Translations under genes and position numbers: made by a program
Origin: Oscillospiraceae bacterium
GTDB taxonomy: Bacteria > Bacillota > Clostridia > Oscillospirales > JAGBHD01
Length of the DNA: 51,246 nucleotides
Direction: 5' to 3'
Assembly (NCBI GenBank): GCA_018110785.1
Contig: JAGBHD010000007.1
Span: 1 to 51,246 of the forward strand
Shown: in pieces, positions 6,733 through 30,346 of the stretch
How positions within the stretch are numbered: the first letter of the stretch is position 1
Layout: each line of letters begins with the position of its first letter
The notes under the pieces: model-generated
Told to the model about the DNA's origin: nothing
Seen by the model: the letters and a program-made list of their open reading frames with translations, nothing else
Database searches by the model: none

Positions 6733-7629
6733 ATGAAATATCTATCCGTTAAAGAGGTTGCTTTACTTTGGAATACATCCGAGCGTAGTGTTCGTAATTA
6801 TTGTGCCGCAGGTCGTGTCCCCGGCGCTTTTCTTACAGGCAAGACTTGGAACATTCCCGAAAATGCAGAAAAACCTGAAAGAAGTAATAAAAGCAAACCT
6901 GCACCGCAGACTTTGCTTGATATTCTAAAAGAGGAAAAGCGCAGTCAGACCCACGGCGGAATTTATCATAAAATACAGATTGAACTGACCTATAACTCCA
7001 ATCACATCGAAGGCAGTCGCCTCACCCACGATCAGACGCGCTATATCTTTGAAACCAACACTATCGGCATAACTGATGAGGGCGTGCGTGTTGACGATAT
7101 TATCGAAACTGCTACCCACTTCCGTTGCATCGATGAAATTATCGAGAGTGCAAAATCGCAGCTTAGCGAAAAGTTTATTAAACATTTGCATTTCATCCTC
7201 AAGACCGGTACAAGCGATGCTAAAAAAGATTGGTTTGCGGTCGGTGATTATAAAAAGCTACCTAACGAGGTCGGCGGTATGGAAACAGCTCTCCCCGAAG
7301 ATGTATCTCGTGATATGAAAAAACTCCTCAGCAGTTATAACAGTAAAGAGAATGTAACGCTCGAAGATATTATTGAGTTCCACGTGCAGTTTGAGCGCAT
7401 CCACCCGTTCCAAGATGGTAACGGTCGTGTCGGCAGATTGATTATGTTTAAAGAATGCTTAAAACACGGTATTGTACCATTTATCATCGAAGATAAAATT
7501 AAAATGTTCTATTACCGCGGATTGAAAGAATGGGATCAGGAAAAAGGATACCTTACCGACACCTGCCTCTCCGCACAGGATGCATTCAAAAATTATTTAG
7601 ATTATTTTAGAATACCATATACAGATTAA
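6733..7629 (+). CDS. Fic/Fido-domain protein with N-terminal DNA-binding helix-turn-helix
   Basis: Fic proteins usually transfer AMP (or another nucleotide moiety) from NTP to a protein side chain. The core motif HPFQDGNGRVGR is intact with catalytic His224. An N-terminal inhibitory motif of the (S/T)xxxE(G/N) type is present as SNHIEG (Ser89 to Glu93), so activity is probably autoinhibited in the class II manner. Residues 1-50 form an excisionase/MerR-like helix-turn-helix (YLSVKEVALLWNTSERSVRNYC). A short Lys/Pro-rich linker follows. Base use is richer in C-ending codons (ATC, CAC, CGC) than the neighbours, consistent with transfer. It is flanked by inverted repeats and followed by a truncated membrane ORF. 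No antitoxin-like partner is visible, and the target is unknown. Confidence 0.92.
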   Translation: MKYLSVKEVALLWNTSERSVRNYCAAGRVPGAFLTGKTWNIPENAEKPERSNKSKPAPQTLLDILKEEKRSQTHGGIYHKIQIELTYNSNHIEGSRLTHDQTRYIFETNTIGITDEGVRVDDIIETATHFRCIDEIIESAKSQLSEKFIKHLHFILKTGTSDAKKDWFAVGDYKKLPNEVGGMETALPEDVSRDMKKLLSSYNSKENVTLEDIIEFHVQFERIHPFQDGNGRVGRLIMFKECLKHGIVPFIIEDKIKMFYYRGLKEWDQEKGYLTDTCLSAQDAFKNYLDYFRIPYTD

Positions 7630-7653: not shown

Positions 7654-7818
7654 ATGGACGTTGTTTTAGCTATAATTGCAGGATTGGTTTCGATATGTGT
7701 TGCAATTTTTGGTGCTGTTTTTGTAAATATAAATAATACGAAAATGCAGACAAGGAAACTAAAACAAGAACACTATGTTAAATATATAGAATCAGTTCAT
7801 AAATACTTAATCTATTAA
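7654..7818 (+). CDS. Small membrane ORF, probably the broken start of a larger gene
   Basis: A 54-residue frame starts with MDVVLAIIAGLVSICVAIFG (one strong transmembrane helix, residues 3-26) and continues into a charged stretch KMQTRKLKQEHYVKYIE before stopping at HKYLIY. A single N-terminal helix followed by an abruptly ended basic helix looks like the N-terminal fragment of a longer phage- or plasmid-type membrane protein. Another frame downstream reads INNYIQGISSEELE, which may be the shifted continuation. Upstream is only a weak AAAAGAAG. It lies 24 bases after fic, inside the inverted repeats. I do not recognise a function and consider it a likely pseudogene fragment. Confidence 0.45.
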   Translation: MDVVLAIIAGLVSICVAIFGAVFVNINNTKMQTRKLKQEHYVKYIESVHKYLIY

Positions 7819-11262: not shown

Positions 11263-11946
11263 TTATATAGCTCTTATAATTCCGCATGGGGTTTTCTGAG
11301 TCGATTGACCGAGTGGGTTATCGCTTAAAATTTTCGCTAACCATTCTTCGGTAATTTCAGGGTCGCTTGTGCCGCAAAGGGTGCAAGAGATAGGATTGGC
11401 ATCAACTATAACAACGGGTGTTCCCAGCGCCCGAGCAGCTCTTTTTGCATCTTCGTTAGGATTTAAAACAGATAAAACTATCTGCTGATCGTAAGGCGGG
11501 ATAGTTCTTAAAGAGGGACCGTCAATATGACTTACCTTAGTTCCCGCGATTATATAAAACCAACCTCTCTTGCGAAAAGCCTTTCCTATAGCGCCCGCCG
11601 CTGCCGCAAAAAGAATTCGAACAGCGCCAACCTCGTCTATAGCTGCCTGCATCGTTTGAGGAAGCCCTAAGCCCTCTGAATAGGTCGGCTCTACATATTT
11701 GGAAAGCATTCTCGCAAATCGGGAAACCTTAACGTCTTCAAGCTTTATTGTTCGCCCTTGAGAGCAAGCAACCATTTTTTCGCTTATGAAAACGATATCG
11801 CCTTTTTGCAAAAGCGGGGCGGCATATTCCCTTAAAACCTCTATAAAATCAGTCTCAGCCGTTACAAGGCAGGTTTTAACGGGAATTCGCTCGTATTTTT
11901 TTCCGTCTAAAACAACCGACGGTTTTTCATTTATATTTTCTGACAT
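11263..11946 (-). CDS. CofE-like (F420-0:gamma-glutamyl ligase family) protein
   Basis: The protein matches the F420_ligase (CofE) fold family, whose founding members add glutamate to coenzyme F420-0 using GTP. Visible family traits are the early GDIVFISEKMVACSQGR, the central AAAGAIGKAFRKRGWFYIIAG and the acidic VVIVDANPISC. The last part holds paired cysteines (SCTLCGT). At 227 residues it is the length of a minimal CofE. Members occur in Clostridia that are not known to make F420, where the reaction is unknown. It lies 12 bases downstream of trpS on the same strand, so the two are almost certainly co-transcribed. I call the family, not the reaction. Confidence 0.8.
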   Translation of the reverse strand: MSENINEKPSVVLDGKKYERIPVKTCLVTAETDFIEVLREYAAPLLQKGDIVFISEKMVACSQGRTIKLEDVKVSRFARMLSKYVEPTYSEGLGLPQTMQAAIDEVGAVRILFAAAAGAIGKAFRKRGWFYIIAGTKVSHIDGPSLRTIPPYDQQIVLSVLNPNEDAKRAARALGTPVVIVDANPISCTLCGTSDPEITEEWLAKILSDNPLGQSTQKTPCGIIRAI

Positions 11947-19284: not shown

Positions 19285-22080
19285 ATGTTTAAATTTGCGG
19301 TTAAAAAGCTTATAAAAAACAAATGGCTCTCTGCCTGCCTTATAATCGGCTGTACCCTTGCGGTTGCAGTTTTAAGCTCGGTGCCTATTTATCGCGATGC
19401 AGTTATGCAGAGAATGCTGGAAAAGGACCTCGAGCGAATTTACAGCGAGAAAGGGGTTTATCCGGGCGTTGTAAAATTGAGAGCCAATGTTCAGTCGGTA
19501 GGAAATCAGAGCGACCTCACAAGAACAGAGGCTTATGATAAATATAAAACTGAGTTTACCGAGATTTTATCGGAAACTATGAATGTTCCTCTGATAAACA
19601 GCTATGAAAGAATAACCTTTGCTAATCTCAGAGCCTATAGATACCCCAAAGATAAAAAGGATAACGGTGCATATGTAAGCTTAATGGGACAAAATTCTTT
19701 AGAGGAGCATATCAATATTATCGCAGGAAGAATGTGTTCCGATAAAATATCGGAAGACGGTGTTATAGAGGTTATTGCCAATCAGATGACTCTTTATAAT
19801 ACCAAAATGGTAATGGGCATAGATTATATGATAACCCCCGATATAACAAGCGGGATAGAGCTTAAAATCCGAATAGTAGGAGTTTATGAGGCGAAAAGCG
19901 AAGATACCGATTATTGGCAGAGAGATGAAAGTGAGCTTAATAACGCGATTATCGGTTCCTTCTCCCTTTTAAGCGGAGATTTCGCTAAAGAAAATGAAAC
20001 AATGCTTTCGGGATTTACCGTCTCAAATAACTATAATTATAAAGAGATGCGGGTAGATAATGTTGAAAAAATGGTAAAGGGCTTAAAAGAAATAGAGGGT
20101 AAATTTCTTTGGCTCGGAAGCGTTTCGGCACCTGCAAGAGAGATAATGGAAAGCTATCCCGAAAGAGCAGATAAGCTGTTTTTAACCCTTACCGTTTTGC
20201 AGATACCTCTTATTTTAATTCTTGTTTTATATATCTTTATGGTATCGGGGCTTTTAATTGAGCACGATACGAACGAAATCTCGGTTTTAAAAAGCCGAGG
20301 CGCGAAATCGGGGCAGATCGTAAAGGTTTATTTAGCGGAAAGTATGGTTTTCGGCGGTGCATCTTTTATTTTAGGAATTCCGCTGAGCTTTCTTATCTGC
20401 AGATTTTTAGGCCTTTCAAACGGATTTTTAGAGTTTGTAAACCGCAAAACAATATTTTTAAACTTTTCTTTTGAGATTATCCTTTTTGCACTTGTAGCCT
20501 TAATAGTCTTTGCTATAACTATGTTAATTCCATCAGCTATAGCGTCAAAAACCGATATAGTAGATTTAAAGCGCAGCCGCTCGAAGATAGGTAAGAAAGC
20601 GATATGGGAAAAATTTTATTTAGATGTTTTGCTCGTATTATTATCACTTTACGGGCTTTATAACTACCGCTCCCGTCAAAGCGTTATAATATCTTTAGGA
20701 ACAAGCTCTGATTCTGTTCCTATCGATCCCTTCCTGTTTATAATGTCGGCGTCATTTATTGTAGGAGCAGGAATGCTCTTTTTAAGATTATATCCTTATC
20801 TAATGCGGGGAATTTTCAAAATAGGAAGAAAGCATTGGAGCCCTACTATCTATGCATCGTTTGTTAATACCTCCCGATCGGGCGGTAAAGATAGATTTAT
20901 AATGCTGTTTTTGATATTCTCATTATCAATAGGTATCTTCAATGCAACTGCCGCGCGTACCCTTTCCAAAAACGAAGAGGAAAAGATAGCATATAAAACG
21001 GGCGCAGATATTGTTATGAGCTTTGAATGGCGACAGACTACCGATGAAAGCGGAAAAACGATAAATGTTGAAGCAAAAACCGACTCAATAAGCGCTATAG
21101 AGGGAATAGAAAAGGTAACAAAGGTTATAAACGAAACCAATAGCGTAGTTTACGGAAAGAAAGCCAAAACTACCCGCGGAACAACCCTTATGGGAATAAA
21201 TCCCGATGAATTTCGGGAGATTGCTTGGTGGCGCGAGGATATTTTAGAAAATAATATGGATTATTATCTGCAGCTGCTTAAAAACAACTCTGCGGCAGTA
21301 TTGCTCTCCTCCTCTTTAAAGGAAAAGCTTTCGGTTGAGCTGGGAAATACTATCAATATTCAGGTTTTAAATGGGGACAGACTTACCTGCGTTGTAGCCG
21401 CATTTATCGACTATTGGCCTACATATTATGAAAATATAGATGGCGAATTAGAAGAAAAGGATATGATAGTTATGAATTATAACTATCTCCAAAACCAAAG
21501 TGCGCCCTTATATTACAGTATCTGGGCTAAAACCAACGAAACTGTTGATACAAAAACTATATATGACGGAATAGAAGCAACAGGTCTTAAGCTTATTTCC
21601 CTTTCCGACCGCCGTCAGGAAACGATAGCCGCAAAAGGCGATGCCCTGTTTCAGGGTATAAACGGAACGCTAACCATGGGCTTTGTTATGACCTTGGTTA
21701 TAAGCGCGATAGGCTTTATAATCTTCTGGGTTCTCTCGGTTAAAAAGCGTTCCTTGCAGTTCGGAATTCTCCGCTCAATGGGGCTTAGGCAAAAAGGCAT
21801 AACAGCAATTCTTTCTTGGGATCAGTTTTTTGTTTCGGGAACATCAGTATTAGTAGGCTTAGCCGTCGGTTTTATAACCTCTAAGCTTTATATACCGGTG
21901 CTTCAGATTTCAGCCGCCGCATCAGATCAAATACCCCAGCTGTTAATAACCTCATCATCGGCAGATTATATAAGAATAGTCGTATCGGTGCTTGTTATGA
22001 TAATTATAGGTATAATGGTTTTATCGGGTGTTACTAGAAGAATGAATATCGGTCAAACATTAAAACTCGGGGAGGACTAA
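19285..22080 (+). CDS. FtsX/MacB-type ABC transporter permease (duplicated, two FtsX units)
   Basis: A 931-residue integral membrane protein. A first helix (about residues 14-33) is followed by a large extracytoplasmic domain (about 40-290), then three helices between about 295 and 425 around the FtsX signature DTNEISVLKSRGAKSGQIVKVYL. A second unit starts near 460 and has another large external domain (about 560-790). It ends with three helices carrying VKKRSLQFGILRSMGLRQKG. Such proteins do not pump across the membrane themselves but use cytoplasmic ATPases to move the external domains, as MacB and LolCDE do. Two ATPase genes follow immediately. The substrate is unknown. Confidence 0.88.
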   Translation: MFKFAVKKLIKNKWLSACLIIGCTLAVAVLSSVPIYRDAVMQRMLEKDLERIYSEKGVYPGVVKLRANVQSVGNQSDLTRTEAYDKYKTEFTEILSETMNVPLINSYERITFANLRAYRYPKDKKDNGAYVSLMGQNSLEEHINIIAGRMCSDKISEDGVIEVIANQMTLYNTKMVMGIDYMITPDITSGIELKIRIVGVYEAKSEDTDYWQRDESELNNAIIGSFSLLSGDFAKENETMLSGFTVSNNYNYKEMRVDNVEKMVKGLKEIEGKFLWLGSVSAPAREIMESYPERADKLFLTLTVLQIPLILILVLYIFMVSGLLIEHDTNEISVLKSRGAKSGQIVKVYLAESMVFGGASFILGIPLSFLICRFLGLSNGFLEFVNRKTIFLNFSFEIILFALVALIVFAITMLIPSAIASKTDIVDLKRSRSKIGKKAIWEKFYLDVLLVLLSLYGLYNYRSRQSVIISLGTSSDSVPIDPFLFIMSASFIVGAGMLFLRLYPYLMRGIFKIGRKHWSPTIYASFVNTSRSGGKDRFIMLFLIFSLSIGIFNATAARTLSKNEEEKIAYKTGADIVMSFEWRQTTDESGKTINVEAKTDSISAIEGIEKVTKVINETNSVVYGKKAKTTRGTTLMGINPDEFREIAWWREDILENNMDYYLQLLKNNSAAVLLSSSLKEKLSVELGNTINIQVLNGDRLTCVVAAFIDYWPTYYENIDGELEEKDMIVMNYNYLQNQSAPLYYSIWAKTNETVDTKTIYDGIEATGLKLISLSDRRQETIAAKGDALFQGINGTLTMGFVMTLVISAIGFIIFWVLSVKKRSLQFGILRSMGLRQKGITAILSWDQFFVSGTSVLVGLAVGFITSKLYIPVLQISAAASDQIPQLLITSSSADYIRIVVSVLVMIIIGIMVLSGVTRRMNIGQTLKLGED

Positions 22081-22081
22081 T

Positions 22082-22762
22082 ATGGGAGCAAGAATAGAAG
22101 GCAAAAATATTGTCCGCGAGTTTAAGGTTGCGGGTGAAAGAATAGTAGCTTTAAACGGCATAAATATCGAAATCCAAGAGGGCAGCTTTGTTATTTTAAA
22201 GGGCCGATCGGGATCGGGTAAAACAACCCTTATAAATATCCTCGGCGGACTCGACGAGCCGACAAAGGGCGAAGTTTTTATCGACGAAAAGGAGATAACC
22301 GCGCTTTCAGAAACTGGCAGAGATGATTTCAGAAGAAAATCAGTCGGCTTCGTTTTTCAGTCGGTTGCTTTGATTTCTGCGATGACTGCCTTTGAAAATG
22401 TGGATTTTGCCCTCAGAATAGCAGGATACCCCCAAAAAGAGAGAGAAAACAGGGCTAAAGAATGCTTAGAGGCGGTAGGACTTTCGGAAAGAATTTATCA
22501 TAAGCCGTCAGAGCTTTCGGGCGGTGAGCAGCAGAGGGTTGCAGTTGCAAGGGCTATCGCGCATAAGCCTAAAATTATCTTCGCCGATGAGCCAACCGCA
22601 GAGTTAGATGCAGAAAAATCCTTTCAGATAGTAGAACTTTTGAAAAGGGTAAGTAAAGAATTGAAAATAACGGTTGTTATGACAACTCATGATCCTAATT
22701 TGCTTTTTGCAGCAGATAATGTATATACTTTAGAGGACGGTGAGATAATAGATGTCCGTTGA
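22082..22762 (+). CDS. ABC transporter ATP-binding protein (first of two)
   Basis: A MacB/LolD-class ATPase. Walker A is GRSGSGKTT near residue 39, the Q-loop region reads GFVFQSVALIS, the signature is LSGGEQQRVAVA, Walker B is IIFADEPTAELD and the switch His lies in MTTHDPN. Length of 226 residues is typical. It begins 1 base after the permease stop and overlaps the second ATPase by 11 bases, so all are one operon. Signature and Walker motifs are intact, so it is predicted to be active. Confidence 0.93.
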   Translation: MGARIEGKNIVREFKVAGERIVALNGINIEIQEGSFVILKGRSGSGKTTLINILGGLDEPTKGEVFIDEKEITALSETGRDDFRRKSVGFVFQSVALISAMTAFENVDFALRIAGYPQKERENRAKECLEAVGLSERIYHKPSELSGGEQQRVAVARAIAHKPKIIFADEPTAELDAEKSFQIVELLKRVSKELKITVVMTTHDPNLLFAADNVYTLEDGEIIDVR

Positions 22763-23654
22763 AGATATTATTGTTATAGAAGAGCTTGTTAAAATTTATA
22801 AATCCAAGGATATCGAAGTTCTCGCCCTGCAGGGCCTCGATTTAAGGGTTAAAAAAGGCGAAATAGTAGCAATTATCGGAAGTAGCGGAAGCGGCAAATC
22901 TACCCTCTTAAATATGATAGGAGGGCTTGATAAGCCCTCAGCAGGAAGTCTTTTTGTTGATGGAAAGGATTTGCTTTCTTTTACCCCGAAGGATTTTATA
23001 GAATATAAGCGAGATACGGTAGGCTTTGTTTGGCAAAACAGCGCCCGAAACCTAATTCCTTATTTAACCGCATATGAGAATATCGAAATCCCGATGATTT
23101 TAAGCGGGAAAAAGGATAGCTCCTATATTTTGGAGCTTTTGGAAATGGTGGGCTTATCTCATCGGAAAAATAATAAGCTTTCCGAGCTTTCGGGCGGCGA
23201 ACAGCAGAGAATTGCTATTGCAACCGCCCTCGCTAATAAACCCAAAATTCTTTTAGCCGATGAGCCTACAGGCGCCGTTGATACCAAAACGGCAGGAATG
23301 ATTTTAGATGTTTTCAGAAATCTCAGAGACCGCCTTGGGATAACCATCGTTATAGTAACCCATGATAATATGATTTCAAACCATGTTGAAAGGGTTGTAT
23401 CTATAAGAGATGGCAAAACAAGCAGTGAGCTTATATTAAAGGAAGAATACCGCGATTTTGCGCTTCAGAATAAAGCTGAGCGCGCGGCATCGGAAAAAAC
23501 CCATAACGAGTTTGTCGTTGTCGATAGATACGGCCGTTTGCAGTTGCCGAAAAATTTTGCCGAAGCAATAGGGCTTGACAAATCGGGTAAGGCAAGAGTA
23601 GAATTAAATGGGGCGAGAATAATAATAACAGCGCCCGAAACGGAGGAAAATTAA
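22752..23654 (+). CDS. ABC transporter ATP-binding protein with C-terminal AbrB-like domain
   Basis: A second ATPase of the same export system. Walker A is GSSGSGKST, the signature LSGGEQQRIAIA, Walker B ILLADEPTGAVD and the switch His is in VTHDN. Unlike its neighbour it is 300 residues long. The extra C-terminal part (about 245-295) reads FVVVDRYGRLQLPKNFAEAI and then GLDKSGKARVELNGARIIIT, which resembles the swapped-hairpin AbrB/SpoVT domain. That domain may dimerise the ATPases or have a regulatory role; DNA binding is not shown. The start overlaps the upstream ATPase, implying coupled translation and possibly a heterodimer. Confidence 0.9.
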   Translation: MSVEDIIVIEELVKIYKSKDIEVLALQGLDLRVKKGEIVAIIGSSGSGKSTLLNMIGGLDKPSAGSLFVDGKDLLSFTPKDFIEYKRDTVGFVWQNSARNLIPYLTAYENIEIPMILSGKKDSSYILELLEMVGLSHRKNNKLSELSGGEQQRIAIATALANKPKILLADEPTGAVDTKTAGMILDVFRNLRDRLGITIVIVTHDNMISNHVERVVSIRDGKTSSELILKEEYRDFALQNKAERAASEKTHNEFVVVDRYGRLQLPKNFAEAIGLDKSGKARVELNGARIIITAPETEEN

Positions 23655-24149
23655 ATGCAGGATACATATGCAGAATGTATGGTAAAACATAGAAGTACTG
23701 TTTTAGATATCATCTGCCAATTCTTGTTAGTTATTTTAGCGGCAGTTTTGGTATCTCTTGTAGTTATATTTGTAAAAGGAATAGGGGCGCTTTTAGCGGT
23801 TCTTATAATCTATGGCGCTTATTATCTTATAACATCAAGATTTTTAGAGTATGAATATATCTTTACAAACGGAGATTTGGATGTTGATAAGATAATTAAC
23901 CGCAAAAAAAGAGAGCGTCTTATAACCGTAAAATCTGATGAAATCGAGAAATTTGCGCTCTATAACCCCAATGAGCATATAAACGGAAACTATCAAACAA
24001 AGATTTTCGCGGCAGAAAACGATAAAGATCCTCAGAATATGTGTCTTGTAGTTCATAGCAAGAAAAAAGGAAAAACCTTGATTGTTTTTTCTCCTAATGA
24101 AAAAATTTCTGAGGCAATTAAAAAATTCGCCCCGAAAGCTGTTCTTTAA
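23655..24149 (+). CDS. Small membrane protein with two N-terminal helices (DUF6106-like)
   Basis: A 164-residue protein of unknown function. Residues 17-40 and 42-61 form two closely spaced transmembrane helices. The C-terminal 100 residues are a soluble, probably cytoplasmic, beta-rich domain with YEYIFTNGDLDVDKIINRKKR and VVHSKKKGKTLIVFSPNEK. This looks like a PH-like or DUF6106-type domain, but I cannot confirm the family by eye. It begins right after the ATPase stop (AGGAAAATTAAATG) and ends the export operon before a terminator. A role as an accessory subunit of the transporter is inferred only from position. Confidence 0.7.
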   Translation: MQDTYAECMVKHRSTVLDIICQFLLVILAAVLVSLVVIFVKGIGALLAVLIIYGAYYLITSRFLEYEYIFTNGDLDVDKIINRKKRERLITVKSDEIEKFALYNPNEHINGNYQTKIFAAENDKDPQNMCLVVHSKKKGKTLIVFSPNEKISEAIKKFAPKAVL

Positions 24150-24222: not shown

Positions 24223-25041
24223 ATGATAAAAGCATTAAAACGGTTGTCAAAAATATCCCTTTCTCATTATATAAAGCTGATTTTTCGCTCGGCTCTCTTC
24301 ATTTCAGCGGCGGTTATTTATATTATAAACCGCATAAATAAAACGGGAATGCCTTTTGGCGATAGCGAACATAAAGCATTAGTCCTTGGGGTTATATGGT
24401 TGGTTTTTGTTATAGAGATGATTTTTCGTTTTTTTCCATCTAAAATCGAAAGTATGGGGTGCCAAAAGCAGTTTGCCCGAAACTTTAAAAATACGAACGC
24501 GTCTAAAGAAAAACCCAAACTGCAATCTGCTAAATCGACCTTTGCCGTTGCCGCTTTTTGGATAGGGTTAAATGCGATTATCGGTTTGCTTTATTATATT
24601 CATATAATTGATGAGGGAATTCTTTTTCTTATAAGCTTAGCATTTTCCGTATGCGATATGATATGTATTTTATTCTTCTGCCCTTTTCAAACATGGTTTA
24701 TGAAAAATAAATGCTGTACGAGCTGTAGGATATATAATTGGGATTATGCAATGATGTTTACTCCTCTTGTGTTTATAAAAAGCTTTTATACATGGAGCAT
24801 TTTGTTATGCGCTGTAATGCTGCTTGTAAGGTGGGAGATAACGGTTTTTAAATATCCCGAAAGGTTTTCCGAAGAAACGAATGCTTGCTTATCCTGCGCG
24901 GGTTGTCAAGAAAGGCTTTGTTCGCATAAAAAGCAGCTGCGAGGATTTCTTTTGAGAAACAAAAGCAGACTGCAATTAAAGGGAAACGAGATACTAGGTA
25001 AGGTAAACAATATTCAAAAAAAGCTAAGAAAAAATGGTTAA
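24223..25041 (+). CDS. Uncharacterised membrane protein with cysteine clusters
   Basis: A 272-residue protein with about five transmembrane helices (near 18-36, 50-68, 106-125, 132-152 and 183-202). Cysteines are grouped on the loop and tail: FMKNKCCTSCRIYNWDYA between helices four and five, and NACLSCAGCQERLCSHKK after the last helix. The pattern CCxxC plus CxxCxxCxxxxC could bind an Fe-S cluster or zinc on one face of the membrane. A positively charged C-terminal tail rich in Lys/Arg follows. I recall similar proteins in Clostridia but cannot name a characterised family. It has its own AAGGAGAGAGG ribosome binding site and lies between two ABC systems; no function is assigned. Confidence 0.75.
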   Translation: MIKALKRLSKISLSHYIKLIFRSALFISAAVIYIINRINKTGMPFGDSEHKALVLGVIWLVFVIEMIFRFFPSKIESMGCQKQFARNFKNTNASKEKPKLQSAKSTFAVAAFWIGLNAIIGLLYYIHIIDEGILFLISLAFSVCDMICILFFCPFQTWFMKNKCCTSCRIYNWDYAMMFTPLVFIKSFYTWSILLCAVMLLVRWEITVFKYPERFSEETNACLSCAGCQERLCSHKKQLRGFLLRNKSRLQLKGNEILGKVNNIQKKLRKNG

Positions 25042-25042
25042 A

Positions 25043-25085
25043 AAATTAGGGCGACAAAACTTTTTTTGTCGCCCTAATTTTTTTA
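25043..25085. terminator. Strong bidirectional terminator
   Basis: A stem formed by AAATTAGGGCGACAAAA (25043-25059) and the complementary TTTTGTCGCCCTAATTT ending at 25080 is followed by more T residues. It separates the Cys-rich membrane protein from the convergent 26-residue peptide and permease. Confidence 0.92.
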
Positions 25086-25100
25086 TGAATGAAATTTAAA

Positions 25101-25181
25101 CTACTTTTTATGTCTGAGAAGCAAGATTATGGCGGAAAAAAGTAATAAAAACGCAGAAAAAGTTACAACAATTTTTTTCAT
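25101..25181 (-). CDS. 26-residue single-helix membrane peptide
   Basis: A tiny ORF begins 17 bases downstream of the permease stop on the same strand and has AAGGA at 25194-25198 upstream. It encodes MKKIVVTFSAFLLLFSAIIL followed by LLRHKK. The composition is Lys-Lys, one strong hydrophobic helix, then Arg-His-Lys-Lys, exactly what a small regulatory membrane peptide would look like. The spacing from ribosome binding site to start (12 bases) is somewhat long. It is the last gene before a strong terminator, so it should be transcribed with the ABC genes. Function is unknown. Confidence 0.5.
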   Translation of the reverse strand: MKKIVVTFSAFLLLFSAIILLLRHKK

Positions 25182-25198
25182 TTTTTGTTATTTTCCTT

Positions 25199-27859
25199 TT
25201 AAATATTTTCATTTTTTAAGGCGTCTATCGGGTTGTCTTTTTTGATTTTTCTCATTGCATATATCATTGTTGAGAAAACAACCGCAAAAACGCTGAGAAT
25301 TGATATTCCGAGAGCGGCAACAGGAAGCCTGAAATTTACTTCGAGAGCATTCATCGCCGCAAGATAAATAAGAAAGGTTATTCCTATGGAAACGGGAATT
25401 CCGAGCATTAAAGCGCGGCTTCCGTATAAAAGACATTCGAAGCCCATCATTTTGTTAAAGCCTTTTTTGGTCATACCAACTGATTTGAGCATCGCGAATT
25501 CTCTTCTTCTGAGGGCTATGTTAGTTGAAATGGTATTAAATACATTGGCGGCGGCAATTAAGGAAATTAAGATTATAAATCCATAAGCGAAAACCTTGAT
25601 GATTAAAATAACATTTCTGCTGAATTCAACATCAGCGGCATAATCCTGAAAGGTGTTAGAGCTAAGCCCTAAGGAAACTAATTCTTTTTTCATTTCCTCA
25701 TAGCTTATAGAATGGTTATCGGAAGTAAAGAAATACTGATAGGAGCTTCCGGATAGGTTATAATCGGGGAGCACCGCGGTTTTAAAGCTTTCGGGATAAA
25801 TCATAACAACGCCGATATTATTTTGCTCTATATAAAAGGGCTTTTCATATATCGTTTTTCCCGAATAAAGGGGAGCTTTTGTTATAACCTCGCTTTGGGG
25901 AAGCTCGATAATTTCGTCCTTTGTTCCGTCTTTTAAAAACTGACAGATGATTTCGCCGTTTTCGTTTTCATATTCGTTTGAAATATGATAGCCCTCGATG
26001 GTTTTTTCGGTATAAACGGAAGTTTCAAAGCTATCAGAGGATAGAACATTGATATTAACATATTTGCTTTTTTCGGAATCGAAGGAAACATTTCCGTCTA
26101 AGGTTACGGCGAGAGGCTTTTGAGGGTTTAAAAAGCTTTCTTCCGAGAGGTTATGGACTTTTAAAAGCTCTTTGAAGCTCTTATCATCAATAAACATAAC
26201 GACGGTATAGGCTGAATCTTCTTTTAAAGTAAGATATTCTTCGCTTAGATATTTTTTATCTATTTCGCATCTAAAGGGAATTCTTTGAACATAGGCTCCG
26301 TCGGTTACGCTTTCTTTAGAAGAAAGAAGACTTAAAAGCTCATTTTTAGAAATATCTTTAAAATCGGATTCATCGCAGAAAAGGCGGAGGTCGTAACCGT
26401 TGTCGCTAAGACCTTCGGTTGCAGAGAGGGTTAAATAATCGGTAAAGGCGGAGGCGGAAACGAATAAAACTATGCTCATAAAAAGGCTTACTACTGTGCT
26501 TCTGTATTTCTTTTTATTTCGCTTATAATGCTTATTTGCCAAAACTCCCGAAAGCCCGAATAATTTATATATTATTTTAGAGGTTTTTATCGGCTTTTTG
26601 GTTTCTTTAATATCGGAAGACTGCCTTATAGCCTCAACAGCCGAAACACCAGCACCTCTTTTTGAGGGGATAAATGCCGAAATCAAAACGGTTATCAAGG
26701 CGATAACAGCCGCCGCGATAATCGAAATAAATGAAACCTTGGTTTCCATTGGAAGAGGGAAGTTTGCAAGTCCTGCGAACTTTTCGCCGACAAATAAAAG
26801 GGTTATTCCTATTCCGCCAACACCCGTTATAATGCCTATCGGAATTCCGATAGCACTGACGACGAGGGCTTCGAAAATAACCATTCTTCTCAGCTGCTTT
26901 TTTGTAGCACCGATAGAGGAGAGAAGACCGAACTGCTTAGTTCTTTCCGAAACGGAAATAGAGAAGGCATTATAAATTAAAGAAACCGAGCCGAATATAA
27001 TAAGCGCTATAACGATGGCGGCGAAAGAGGACATAGCGGCAGTAAAGCCATCAAATCCGAAAGAGCCGGAATACATTAAAACATCGGTATTTGTAGTTCC
27101 CGATAGCTCCATTTCTTTCATAAAATCATAAGTGTCGTCGGGGTTTTTCATTTTAAAATAGGCATCATAGTTATAATGAACGGAGGTGTTTTTATCGGCT
27201 ATGGTTATAGCCGTATAGCCTGGGGCAGAAAGGGGCTCGAAATTCGGGCGCTCATAAAAGCCAACGACCGTATAGCTTCTTCGCTCTTTCGGCTTTAATA
27301 TTTCGTTTGTAAGCTCGGCTGAGCCATCAGTATATACAAAGGCAGGATTATGTTGGCCGAGCGTTTCGCCATCTAAAATTCGAGAGCCTATATCAAAAGA
27401 AAGCCTATCTTCGAGCTGATATAATATTCCGCCATCTTCCGAGAGATGAAGAGGCAAGAGGATTTCGCTATCGTTTTCGGGGTATCTTCCGTTTACTATA
27501 TGAACGGGCATATTTTTTTCGAAATCTTCACCCGCACCGATAATAAAAAGATAGGGCTTATATTTGTTTTTGCAGTTTTCCAAATATGAATAGCCTAACT
27601 GCTGATCATAAACGGCATCTTCTATTTTTCCTGTTGCAAAAAGCTCTGTATATGTTCTCCATTCGATATCGAGGGCGCTTCCATGCCAATTACCGTTGTT
27701 ATAAACGGCATTTTTTAAAAGGAAATTCTGAAAGCTCGAAGCAAAGGTTGTAACGGCGGTTATCATAGCCGCCGAAAGAATAATTCCTATTATTGTAACA
27801 ATTGTTCGGGTTTTATTTTTCTTTAAGGTCTGAATAGTTACTTTATTAAAAACATTCAT
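25199..27859 (-). CDS. FtsX-family ABC transporter permease
   Basis: An 886-residue integral membrane protein with a duplicated FtsX layout. Helix one is at residues 17-37, a large external domain spans about 45-265, and three helices at about 268-400 carry SVSERTKQFGLLSSIGATKKQLRRM. Another helix near 450 starts the second unit, whose external domain spans about 475-750. Three final helices include NIALRRREFAMLKSVGMTKKGF. This is typical of permeases working with peptide- or antibiotic-sensing ATPases. It overlaps the ATPase gene by 4 bases and belongs to a module with the adjacent two-component system. The likely role, inferred from context, is defence against or export of a peptide or envelope-active compound. 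Confidence 0.88.
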   Translation of the reverse strand: MNVFNKVTIQTLKKNKTRTIVTIIGIILSAAMITAVTTFASSFQNFLLKNAVYNNGNWHGSALDIEWRTYTELFATGKIEDAVYDQQLGYSYLENCKNKYKPYLFIIGAGEDFEKNMPVHIVNGRYPENDSEILLPLHLSEDGGILYQLEDRLSFDIGSRILDGETLGQHNPAFVYTDGSAELTNEILKPKERRSYTVVGFYERPNFEPLSAPGYTAITIADKNTSVHYNYDAYFKMKNPDDTYDFMKEMELSGTTNTDVLMYSGSFGFDGFTAAMSSFAAIVIALIIFGSVSLIYNAFSISVSERTKQFGLLSSIGATKKQLRRMVIFEALVVSAIGIPIGIITGVGGIGITLLFVGEKFAGLANFPLPMETKVSFISIIAAAVIALITVLISAFIPSKRGAGVSAVEAIRQSSDIKETKKPIKTSKIIYKLFGLSGVLANKHYKRNKKKYRSTVVSLFMSIVLFVSASAFTDYLTLSATEGLSDNGYDLRLFCDESDFKDISKNELLSLLSSKESVTDGAYVQRIPFRCEIDKKYLSEEYLTLKEDSAYTVVMFIDDKSFKELLKVHNLSEESFLNPQKPLAVTLDGNVSFDSEKSKYVNINVLSSDSFETSVYTEKTIEGYHISNEYENENGEIICQFLKDGTKDEIIELPQSEVITKAPLYSGKTIYEKPFYIEQNNIGVVMIYPESFKTAVLPDYNLSGSSYQYFFTSDNHSISYEEMKKELVSLGLSSNTFQDYAADVEFSRNVILIIKVFAYGFIILISLIAAANVFNTISTNIALRRREFAMLKSVGMTKKGFNKMMGFECLLYGSRALMLGIPVSIGITFLIYLAAMNALEVNFRLPVAALGISILSVFAVVFSTMIYAMRKIKKDNPIDALKNENI

Positions 27860-28539
27860 CGGCGGATTACCTCATCGCGGGTAATTTTACCGTCTTCAAT
27901 AGCTATAATTCTATCTGCTTGTAAAGCTATGCTCTCATCATGGGTTATTACTATAAGGGTCTGATTATATTTCTGATTAGACATTTTAAGCAGCTCTACT
28001 ATTTCCTTGCTGTTTTTGCTATCCAAGTTTCCCGTTGGCTCATCGGCTAAAACAACAGCGGGGGCATTCATAAGCGCTCTGCCTATAGAAACGCGCTGCT
28101 GCTGACCGCCCGACAGCTGATTAGGAAGATGATTTTCTCTGCCCTCGAGCTTTAATATAGAGATTAGCTCTTTTAATCTTTCTTCATTTACCTTTTGGCA
28201 GTCCATTAAAACAGGGAGGGTTATATTTTCGGTTACATTAAGAACGGGGATAAGATTATAAAACTGATAAATAAGCCCTACCTGACGGCGGCGAAAGATA
28301 GCGAGGCTTTCATCATCTCCTGCATAAACATCGCAACCGTCCATAAAGACCTTGCCGCTCGTTGGCTTATCAACACCGCCGAGAATATGCAGAAGCGTAG
28401 ATTTTCCCGAGCCTGATGGTCCGATTATGGCAATAAATTCGCCGCGGTTTACCGAAAATGATATGTTGTCGAGGGCTTTTACTTCATTTTCGCCTTTGCC
28501 GTAGATTTTACTTAGGTTTTCAACTCTTAATATTTCCAT
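27856..28539 (-). CDS. ABC transporter ATP-binding protein (two-component-linked)
   Basis: A 227-residue MacB/BceA-class ATPase. Walker A is GPSGSGKST near residue 39, the Q-loop GLIYQFYNLIP, the signature LSGGQQQRVSIGRA, Walker B VVLADEPTGNLDS and the switch ITHDE. All catalytic motifs are present. GAAAGGAAA precedes the ATG. It is the first gene of the ABC unit and its end overlaps the permease start by 4 bases. A candidate promoter and inverted-repeat operator lie directly upstream. Confidence 0.94.
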   Translation of the reverse strand: MEILRVENLSKIYGKGENEVKALDNISFSVNRGEFIAIIGPSGSGKSTLLHILGGVDKPTSGKVFMDGCDVYAGDDESLAIFRRRQVGLIYQFYNLIPVLNVTENITLPVLMDCQKVNEERLKELISILKLEGRENHLPNQLSGGQQQRVSIGRALMNAPAVVLADEPTGNLDSKNSKEIVELLKMSNQKYNQTLIVITHDESIALQADRIIAIEDGKITRDEVIRR

Positions 28540-28633: not shown

Positions 28634-28667
28634 ACAAAGGAACGGTTTTTTTAAACTGTTCCTTTGT
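28634..28667 (-). terminator. Hairpin at the end of the two-component genes
   Basis: ACAAAGGAAC (28634-28643) pairs with GTTCCTTTGT (28658-28667), with a further GTTT/AAAC pairing inside after one imperfect pair. It includes the stop codon of the histidine kinase gene. No good T-run follows on the minus strand, so termination may be partial. Confidence 0.4.
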
Positions 28668-29655
28668 AAAATCTTATTGTAAATAAAGTTCCTGAGCCCT
28701 TATTATTTTCTGCCTTTATGTACCCGCCCTGAGAGTTTATAATCATTCTTGAAAGGGAAAGACCGATGCCGAAGCCCTTATCTCCCGCGGTTTTTCCCTT
28801 ATAAAACCGCTCGAATATATGAGGCAAATCTTCTTCAGAAATTCCGCTTCCGTTATCGCTTATAATAATTTCCGAATAAAGGGCATTTTCCGAAGCGGAG
28901 ATTTTAATTTTTCCGCCTAAGGGAGTGTGCTCGGTGCAGTTTTTTATAATATTGCCGAGCGCCTCGCTTGTCCATAAAATATCGCCCTCAAAAAATCCGC
29001 TTGAATCTGTTTCAATAGTTTGCTCTTTAAGTTCGATAGGAACTAAAAGGGGAGAAATAGCTTTATCTATAAGCTCCTTTAAGGAAATTTTCTCTTTTTT
29101 AAATTCTATAGTTCCTGCATCAAGCTTAGATATTTTTAAAAGGGCGGTTATAAGCCAATCTATTCTTGAGAGAAGCTCATATAATTCGTGGGTAAGCTTT
29201 AGTCTTCTCTCTTCCGATATATTAGGCTCTGAAAGAAAGGAAATGAGCAGATTTATTGAGGTTAAAGGCGTTCTTATCTGATGGGAGATATCGGCTAAGG
29301 AATCGGCAAGATATATTTTATCATCCTTTAGCTTTTGGCTATATTCTCTGAGCCTTACCGTCATTTTATAAATCTCGCTTTGCAAGATTCCAAGCTCTCC
29401 CTCGCTGAATTCAGAGAATGTTATTTTGTTATCACCATGCAAGATGAGGTTTATTTCGGAAGAAAGAAGCGAAATTTTCTTATATCTTTTATAGGTTGAG
29501 ATAAGAAAAATAATAAAAAGAATAAGGCAGAGAATTAGGGTAAAATTCCCGAAAGGGATATGCCAAAGATAGGCGGAGATAATCGCGGGAATTGCGAAAA
29601 CACCGAAAGCGATAAGTGTTCTTCTTATTTCGGGATTGCGAAGAAGATTTATCAT
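28651..29655 (-). CDS. Sensor histidine kinase, short-loop (intramembrane-sensing) type
   Basis: A membrane sensor kinase of 334 residues. Two transmembrane helices (about 13-30 and 36-53) are separated by only a few residues, so there is no extracytoplasmic sensing domain. The phospho-acceptor is His125 in DISHQIRTPLTS. The ATPase domain shows IIKNCTEHTP (N box), DNGSGISEEDLPHIFERF (G1/F) and GFGIGLSLSRMI (G2). Kinases of this layout commonly sense through a partner ABC transporter, as in Bce- and Vnc/Vex-type modules. Its start overlaps the response regulator's end by 4 bases. The ABC genes lie downstream with their own promoter. Confidence 0.92.
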   Translation of the reverse strand: MINLLRNPEIRRTLIAFGVFAIPAIISAYLWHIPFGNFTLILCLILFIIFLISTYKRYKKISLLSSEINLILHGDNKITFSEFSEGELGILQSEIYKMTVRLREYSQKLKDDKIYLADSLADISHQIRTPLTSINLLISFLSEPNISEERRLKLTHELYELLSRIDWLITALLKISKLDAGTIEFKKEKISLKELIDKAISPLLVPIELKEQTIETDSSGFFEGDILWTSEALGNIIKNCTEHTPLGGKIKISASENALYSEIIISDNGSGISEEDLPHIFERFYKGKTAGDKGFGIGLSLSRMIINSQGGYIKAENNKGSGTLFTIRFYKGTV

Positions 29656-30323
29656 AGCTCCACCTTATAACCCAAGCCGCGAATAGTTTTGATAATTTCG
29701 GGGTTTTGCGGGTCGCTTTCAATTTTTTCTCTGAGCCTTTTTATATAAACGGTTAAGGTGTTGTCGTTTACAAATTCGCCTGCGATATCCCAAATAGCCT
29801 CTAAAAGGTAGGCTCTTGAAAGAACAGAGCCGCGGTTGTTAAGAAAAACAAGAAGCAGACGATATTCGAGGGCGGATAAATATAAATCCTTGCCGTTCTT
29901 TAAGGCGATACCTTTTTCGGTATCTACCTCTAAATTTTCTATTTTGATAACTGTTCCGATATTGCCCGTTAGGCGGAGAATGTTTTTAATTCTCATAACA
30001 AGCTCTCGCGGTCTGAAAGGCTTTGAGATATAATCGTCAGCGCCGAGGTTAAAGCCTGTAACGGTAGAATATTCATCGCCCGAAGCGGTTAAGAATATAA
30101 CGGGAAGAGAGTAGTTTTCCTTTATTGCCGAGCAAACTGCGAAGCCGTTTCCATCGGAAAGGGAGATGTCGAGAAGAACGATATCGAATTTTTCACGCTC
30201 TAAAATTTCGAGCGCCCCTTTTTGCCCCGATGCGCTTTTAACGAAAAAGCCCTCGGAGGAAAGAAACTCTGTTAAATTAGAAACTATTAAGCTATCGTCT
30301 TCGACAAGCAGAATTTTCGTCAT
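29652..30323 (-). CDS. OmpR/PhoB-family response regulator
   Basis: A receiver domain (about residues 1-118) with acidic pocket EDD at 8-10, phospho-acceptor Asp52 (VLLDISLSDGNG), TAS near 80 and the conserved Lys in SKPFRP near 102. A C-terminal winged-helix domain contains LSALEYRLLLVFLNN and VYIKRLREKIESDP, ending with the usual IRGLGYKVEL. ATG 30323, with GGTGA 5 bases before it, is preferred over an in-frame GTG at 30332. It pairs with the kinase downstream and most likely controls the adjacent ABC genes. Confidence 0.94.
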   Translation of the reverse strand: MTKILLVEDDSLIVSNLTEFLSSEGFFVKSASGQKGALEILEREKFDIVLLDISLSDGNGFAVCSAIKENYSLPVIFLTASGDEYSTVTGFNLGADDYISKPFRPRELVMRIKNILRLTGNIGTVIKIENLEVDTEKGIALKNGKDLYLSALEYRLLLVFLNNRGSVLSRAYLLEAIWDIAGEFVNDNTLTVYIKRLREKIESDPQNPEIIKTIRGLGYKVEL

Positions 30324-30346
30324 TATATTCACCAGCTTTCAAACTA

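Follow-up and report, generated by a model that had tools for sequence, protein, structure and literature searches.

A candidate 26-residue membrane peptide encoded behind an ABC permease in an Oscillospiraceae bacterium

The window analysed here, a stretch of 51,246 nucleotides from an Oscillospiraceae bacterium, carries on its reverse strand genes in the order response regulator, histidine kinase, ABC ATPase and FtsX-type permease, followed by a short open reading frame (ORF) and a terminator-like hairpin (Table 1). The short ORF translates as MKKIVVTFSAFLLLFSAIILLLRHKK (26 codons, C terminus LLRHKK), and we consider it probable that it is translated. Our favoured reading, held tentatively and with somewhat less than even confidence, is that its product is a lineage-specific small accessory membrane protein, the last cistron of a cell-envelope-stress regulator–kinase–ATPase–permease operon. 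The features observed in support of this reading are the frame, its start codon, a ribosome-site-like sequence, a predicted helix and the position before the terminator. An earlier note on this DNA had described a peptide with charged ends and a single hydrophobic helix, encoded in line with the permease and ATPase genes and ahead of a terminator; the translated ORF and the arrangement in Table 1 bear out each of these points. The note named no strand and did not mention the AAGGA.

Table 1. Features of the regulator–kinase–transporter operon and of the ORF behind it
Feature	Position	Strand	Description
Response regulator	29652..30332	(-)	226 aa; receiver and Trans_reg_C domains
Sensor histidine kinase	28651..29655	(-)	334 aa; two N-terminal helices joined by almost no loop (intramembrane-sensing type)
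ABC ATPase	27856..28539	(-)	227 aa; closest NCBIfam models LolD and MacB, neither reaching its cut-off
FtsX-type ABC permease	25199..27859	(-)	886 aa; 8 predicted helices, two large loops (about 240 and 276 aa)
AAGGA, Shine–Dalgarno-like	25194..25198	(-)	immediately 3′ of the permease stop codon, 12 nt 5′ of the ORF ATG
Short ORF	25101..25181	(-)	26 aa, ATG to TAG; one predicted hydrophobic helix, residues 4–22; basic ends MKK and RHKK
Terminator-like hairpin	25040..25083	(-)	20 pairs, 6 GC; common to the operon and a convergent (+) gene

The ATG of the ORF lies 17 nt past the permease stop, and 15–17 nt separate the ORF's own stop from the beginning of the hairpin stem, depending on how far the stem is drawn. 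The spacing of the AAGGA is at the edge of the normal range, tolerable but not ideal: AGGA stands at a spacer of 12 in 7 of 298 called genes of the same genome, with a peak at spacers 6–11. Hydrophobicity is 2.75 in the ORF frame and 0.6 and 1.2 in its other two frames. The codon score is barely positive (+2.2 over 25 codons), and two further frames overlap the ORF, one of 34 residues on the same strand and one of 38 residues on the other. Because both ends of the peptide are basic, they do not fix the orientation of the helix. The peptide has no match in Pfam or NCBIfam, and no second copy was found in its own genome. Genes under about 30 codons usually escape annotation.

The two kinase helices lie near residues 13–31 and 35–53 by hydropathy; with almost no outside loop, the kinase probably takes its signal inside the membrane. 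In sequence comparison with the PDB the permease gives weak matches to MacB, YtrF and PsdB, and another close permease was not found in its own genome. Across the whole window there is no Rfam match at gathering scores and no tRNA. The convergent gene that shares the terminator (24223–25041, forward strand) encodes a 272-residue multi-helix protein with cysteine pairs (CCTSC, CLSCAGCQERLC), which has no Pfam match and an NCBIfam match at chance level only. A second ABC module, also convergent to the first, occupies 19285–24149 on the forward strand and comprises a 931-residue FtsX-like permease weakly similar to the 886-residue one, two ATPases, of which the second is extended at its C terminus, and a 164-residue DUF6106 protein.

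An open frame in this position is unremarkable in itself; the combination of ATG, ribosome site and helix is not. Among 20,000 dinucleotide shuffles of the 113-nt gap between the permease stop and the stem, 72% contain a frame of at least 20 residues, whereas hydrophobicity at the level of the ORF is reached in 0.155%, together with an ATG in 0.025%, and together with an ATG and a ribosome site in none. Under a block-shuffle null in which the T-rich local composition is retained and the frame is open by construction, the hydrophobicity is reached in 2–8%, so the helix by itself is only suggestive. We also sampled 368 kb of the same genome (the window plus 20 stretches), which hold 294 ATG frames of 18–60 residues between called genes, where ‘between genes’ is only approximate because the codon-score caller misses genes. 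Hydropathy is at least 2.4 in 5 of these frames, 32 have a ribosome site and 21 lie just behind a gene; with thresholds fixed after the ORF had been chosen by eye in the window, one frame combines all three properties, the ORF at 25181–25101. On a second hydropathy scale, a short hydrophobic ORF with an ATG and a ribosome site occurs at 1 of 301 gene ends, and it is again this ORF. The gene calls come from a codon-score script, which missed a 298-residue gene at 6733–7629 that is absent from all counts; the 272-residue gene was added by hand for the terminator-gap, 294-frame and 301-end counts and is absent from the codon-score, spacer and block-shuffle runs.

The gap behind the permease is unusually long. 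The sample offered 159 gene ends, and for 90 of them a terminator lies within 260 nt; among these the distance from stop to stem is 5.5 nt at the median and 19 nt at the upper quartile, and it reaches 100 nt or more in 8, the permease’s among them. The gap becomes ordinary if the ORF is the last gene, leaving 15 nt to the stem. Among 19 gaps of at least 36 nt, this one alone holds an ATG frame with a ribosome site (at least 12 residues) that ends before the terminator, and in one other a GTG frame preceded by a ribosome site extends 11 nt into the stem. A structured RNA as the cause of the gap was dropped as a candidate. The stretch that includes the terminator folds far better than shuffles (z -4.6); the gap alone folds no better than shuffles (z 0.15), so that RNA structure does not account for it. 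Fold prediction for the gap places part of the AAGGA in a paired region. Frameshifting or read-through from the permease was likewise dropped, many relatives’ permeases stopping at an identical ...NENI or ...NENL.

Related permease loci were collected by sampling the order and the class, as well as the families and genera to which the nearest matches belong, with at most 30 loci taken per search; in three of the searches the matching genomes numbered 97, 58 and 75, and all locus counts are among the matches listed. Left out were 10 of the first 79 loci, which lack the permease C terminus or have less than 100 nt behind it, and L119 of the next 14. The set comprises 83 other loci, of which 10 have at least 48% identity to the window permease, 37 have 40–48% and 36 fall below 40%. 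The first locus scan used a hydropathy scale that under-rates tryptophan, with a threshold of 2.0 at which L109 would be missed, and 82 loci were rescanned with another scale. Under the final limits (ATG, ribosome site and helix; 18–60 residues; start within 100 nt; 0.7), such an ORF is present at 3 of 84 permease loci among the matches listed: the window, L109 and L124. The search for similar short ORFs behind homologous permeases that the earlier note had proposed thus yields look-alikes at 2 of 83 loci, both from one genus, but none at the other 81 among the matches listed, including the closest (L036, 55%; L123, 53%; L076, 53%). Both look-alikes are among the 10 loci with at least 48% permease identity.

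Shuffling the 200 nt behind each stop gives a mean of 0.095 such loci per set, with two loci in 1 of 200 sets and three in none, and reverse-complementing the downstream DNA gives such a frame in 2 of 84. One of the reverse-strand cases, L123, looks like a true small gene, which places the background of real small membrane genes above zero. There, on the strand opposite the permease and no more than 300 nt past its stop, a 41-residue frame with a ribosome site (MSKKQKSTYSLPVRILAIILTILVASGVVTYLIMFILNLFS) may resemble small membrane proteins of the Prli42/DUF4044 kind. A looser rescan (300 nt, 16–70 residues, 0.55) also listed a 67-residue frame with a ribosome site at +251 in L084 and several frames that have no ribosome site, such as one of 23 residues at +76 in L079; the final limits leave out both. 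The peptide itself has no match at E 0.01 in 393 other genomes of the order, none of them from the family of the window genome, and viral contigs contain neither a permease relative nor an exact 30-nt match.

Regulator, kinase, ATPase and permease genes are consecutive on one strand in 9 of 10 neighbourhoods, with up to about 1.5 kb between kinase and ATPase and with a foreign gene between them in L106; the tenth, L103, offers just the permease, on a contig of 5.9 kb. Identities to the window proteins, short partial matches left out, are 66–81% for the regulator, 47–64% for the kinase, 77–88% for the ATPase and 40–55% for the permease. In L106, a 34-codon piece matching the permease C terminus (76%) lies at 11297–11398 on the reverse strand, between the kinase gene and the unrelated gene that precedes the ATPase, and is a trace of duplication or rearrangement.

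The look-alike peptides of L109 (MKKLWWIPVVAASALVLGLWRRARRAE) and L124 (MKKFWWIPAIATSALVLGLWRRAKRAG) have 27 residues each, on an MKK–helix–RR plan. They start 67–68 nt past the stop of permeases that are 49–51% identical to the window permease, after a strong ribosome site (AAAGGAG); the two loci belong to the same genus and count as one lineage. Between them the peptides, identical at 21 of 27 residues, are as conserved as the permeases (79% identical), and the peptide frame is free of indels. The ORF has pN 0.099 and pS 0.195 (pN/pS 0.51, from ten changes only), compared with pN 0.119 and pS 0.394 in the permease. Nucleotide differences amount to 11.9% in the ORF and 12.8% in the next 80 nt, so the similarity extends beyond the ORF; differences reach 21% over the first 52 nt past the permease and 47% over the 15 nt 5′ of the ATG, with AAAGGAG present in both. 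A third genome of the genus (L123) has a hairpin and T-run in this place instead, as judged by eye, and among 246 genomes of the family the L124 peptide matches only in G903, the source of L109. The 14 kb read around L109 in G903 (L125) contain no regulator or kinase match, so the look-alike there follows an ATPase–permease pair alone; the L124 contig begins at the ATPase. The 27-residue peptides align with the window peptide only in M, K, K and three more residues, and judged from sequence the resemblance is one of plan (MKK, helix, basic tail) and not of provable homology.

Other relatives keep longer proteins in the same slot. The gene next after the permease encodes a longer protein with an N-terminal helix or a lipoprotein-like signal in at least 11 of the 83 other loci. 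Ten of these were scanned against Pfam, L021 being the eleventh and outside the scan, and seven match: DUF218 (L036, L112), VanY-type carboxypeptidase (L117), Transglycosylase (L044), C39-like peptidase (L038), DUF5050 (L005) and DUF5301 (L007). We infer from these proteins that the cell envelope is the theme of the operon. The slot proteins of L033, L034 and L118 have no Pfam match. Those of L033 (8739–9014) and L034 (6922–7293), both on the forward strand, are single-helix proteins of 92 and 124 residues directly behind the permease and alike by eye, possibly another candidate accessory protein of the same transporter family. Genome contigs contain three permease relatives at 36–41%, two of them with the 92/124-residue helix protein after the permease.

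A narrow literature search found no description of a peptide behind this kind of permease. The nearest comparison is with VraH of Staphylococcus aureus VraDEH, a small membrane protein whose gene follows directly on those of VraDE, under kinase–regulator control and with a basic C terminus; it is reported to interact with the ATPase VraD only when the permease VraE is present (passages of PMC5786555, PMC7438565 and PMC6291627). The window system shares, as a sequence prediction, a single-helix small membrane protein encoded behind an ATPase–permease pair, together with a kinase–regulator system and a basic C terminus. The likeness has limits. VraH is reported to carry the C-terminal motif YYKRREEKGK (a passage of PMC5786555), whereas the window peptide ends in LLRHKK. 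The BceB-type permease is described as having 10 helices with one outside domain of 200–250 residues between helices VII and VIII, whereas a simple hydropathy scan of the window permease gives 8 segments and two large loops. We regard the favoured reading as comparable to VraH, the peptide not being VraH by motif nor the permease BceB by helix count. Intramembrane-sensing kinases have two helices and almost no outer loop (a passage of PMC5786555), the BceRS–BceAB kinase is described as having two helices and a short loop of about 25 residues, and the window kinase has this architecture by hydropathy. In Bce-like modules such kinases are activated by the transporter (a passage of PMC7438565).

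A second precedent is YsaD, which is encoded with the ABC transporter YsaCB and appears to modulate signal relay to the kinase system (a passage of PMC7438565). With YsaD/YxeA of the Lactococcus and Bacillus Bce-like modules the window shares a small protein encoded with an ABC transporter and a kinase pair, but YsaD has 119 residues, is predicted to be secreted and belongs to TIGR01655; the 26-residue peptide has no TIGR01655 match and reaches no NCBIfam family at E 0.1 or E 1. That the peptide modulates the permease or the kinase, as had been suggested earlier, is plausible by analogy with VraH/VraDE and YsaD/YsaCB. The single-helix plan is shared with KdpF, AcrZ and YohP of Escherichia coli. 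KdpF is a small subunit of a transporter. AcrZ is an interaction partner of the pump AcrB and increases resistance to some AcrB substrates (a passage of PMC7267776), and YohP has 27 residues (a passage of PMC7549839). The partners of AcrZ and KdpF, an RND pump and a P-type ATPase, differ from the putative partner of the window peptide.

It is a real possibility, if one short of evens, that the ORF is a chance or non-functional frame within the transporter mRNA’s 3′ untranslated end, perhaps weakly translated but idle. The frequency of open frames in the shuffled gap and the two overlapping frames argue for this, as do the T-rich stretch, which favours hydrophobic codons, the marginal AGGA spacing and the lack of the ORF at 81 of 83 related loci among the matches listed. 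Against it stand the rarity with which an ATG, a ribosome site and a helix coincide in this position (at 1 of 301 gene ends and in none of the 20,000 shuffles), an unusual gap that the ORF accounts for, and the look-alike in the same slot of a second lineage. The helix could instead be the N-terminal anchor left from a larger envelope-protein gene that once lay behind the permease and was shortened by a deletion up to the terminator, and the helix-bearing or lipoprotein-like proteins in this slot (DUF218, VanY, Transglycosylase, the 92/124-residue proteins) are consistent with such an origin; but the frame has a basic tail and stops cleanly a short way ahead of the terminator, and free-standing 27-residue versions exist in L109 and L124, so we think a remnant unlikely.

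Two further readings accept a functional peptide and assign it another role. It might regulate the histidine kinase instead of the transporter, giving feedback by binding to the two kinase helices. The near-loopless kinase and the apparent role of YsaD point in this direction, and the L109 and L124 peptides hit NCBIfam MgrB, at a chance-level E of 0.12–0.13 far under the cut-off; in L125, however, the look-alike follows an ATPase–permease pair, neither a regulator nor a kinase being matched across the 14 kb read, and we regard a kinase-directed role as distinctly unlikely. We give very little credence to a peptide exported by the transporter in the manner of Pep27, or to a hydrophobic peptide of the type I toxin kind, even though the size and hydrophobicity range of type I toxins in general fits a 26-residue peptide. 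The pneumococcal operon is written vex123-pep27-VncRS (a passage of PMC6177237), and the likeness to Pep27 that the earlier note had drawn holds in position only: in both cases the peptide gene stands beside or after ABC transporter genes and near kinase genes, but pep27 lies between vex and vncRS, so that the kinase pair follows it, whereas the window ORF closes an operon opened by the kinase pair. Pep27 is also reported to be secreted. Nothing was found to support the suggestion, in the same note, that the exporter might carry the peptide as its substrate; neither a cleavable leader nor an export motif is evident by eye, and a promoter scan lists no site on the reverse strand between 25101 and 27494.

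According to the favoured reading of an accessory membrane protein, the peptide would be translated from the transporter mRNA as its last cistron and would insert as a single helix beside the permease in the membrane. Its basic tail may then touch the permease or the ATPase and tune transport or signalling, as reported for VraH, with the kinase presumably activated by the transporter as in Bce-like modules. A broader proposal, which we put forward as rather doubtful, is that 26–27-residue peptides with an MKK–helix–basic-tail plan form a recurring class defined by plan and not by sequence, arising repeatedly in Clostridia-like bacteria behind one kinase/ABC-permease operon family, too short to be caught by gene finders or homology search, and serving as a replaceable third transporter subunit in the position that envelope enzymes occupy in other relatives. 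The reported role of a small subunit like VraH is to determine the drugs against which its transporter gives protection. If the ORF is real, a third membrane component may be hidden in other kinase/ABC modules, and location after the permease combined with the helix plan would serve better than sequence in a search for it; if the ORF is not real, the case shows how far statistics without close relatives can carry an appealing short frame.

Elsewhere in the window, the 298-residue protein encoded at 6733–7629 on the forward strand resembles, by eye, a DNA-binding/Fic-type fusion (HPFQDGNGRVGR). Directly 3′ of its gene, at 7654–7818 on the same strand, lies a 54-residue frame with a strong helix at its start.
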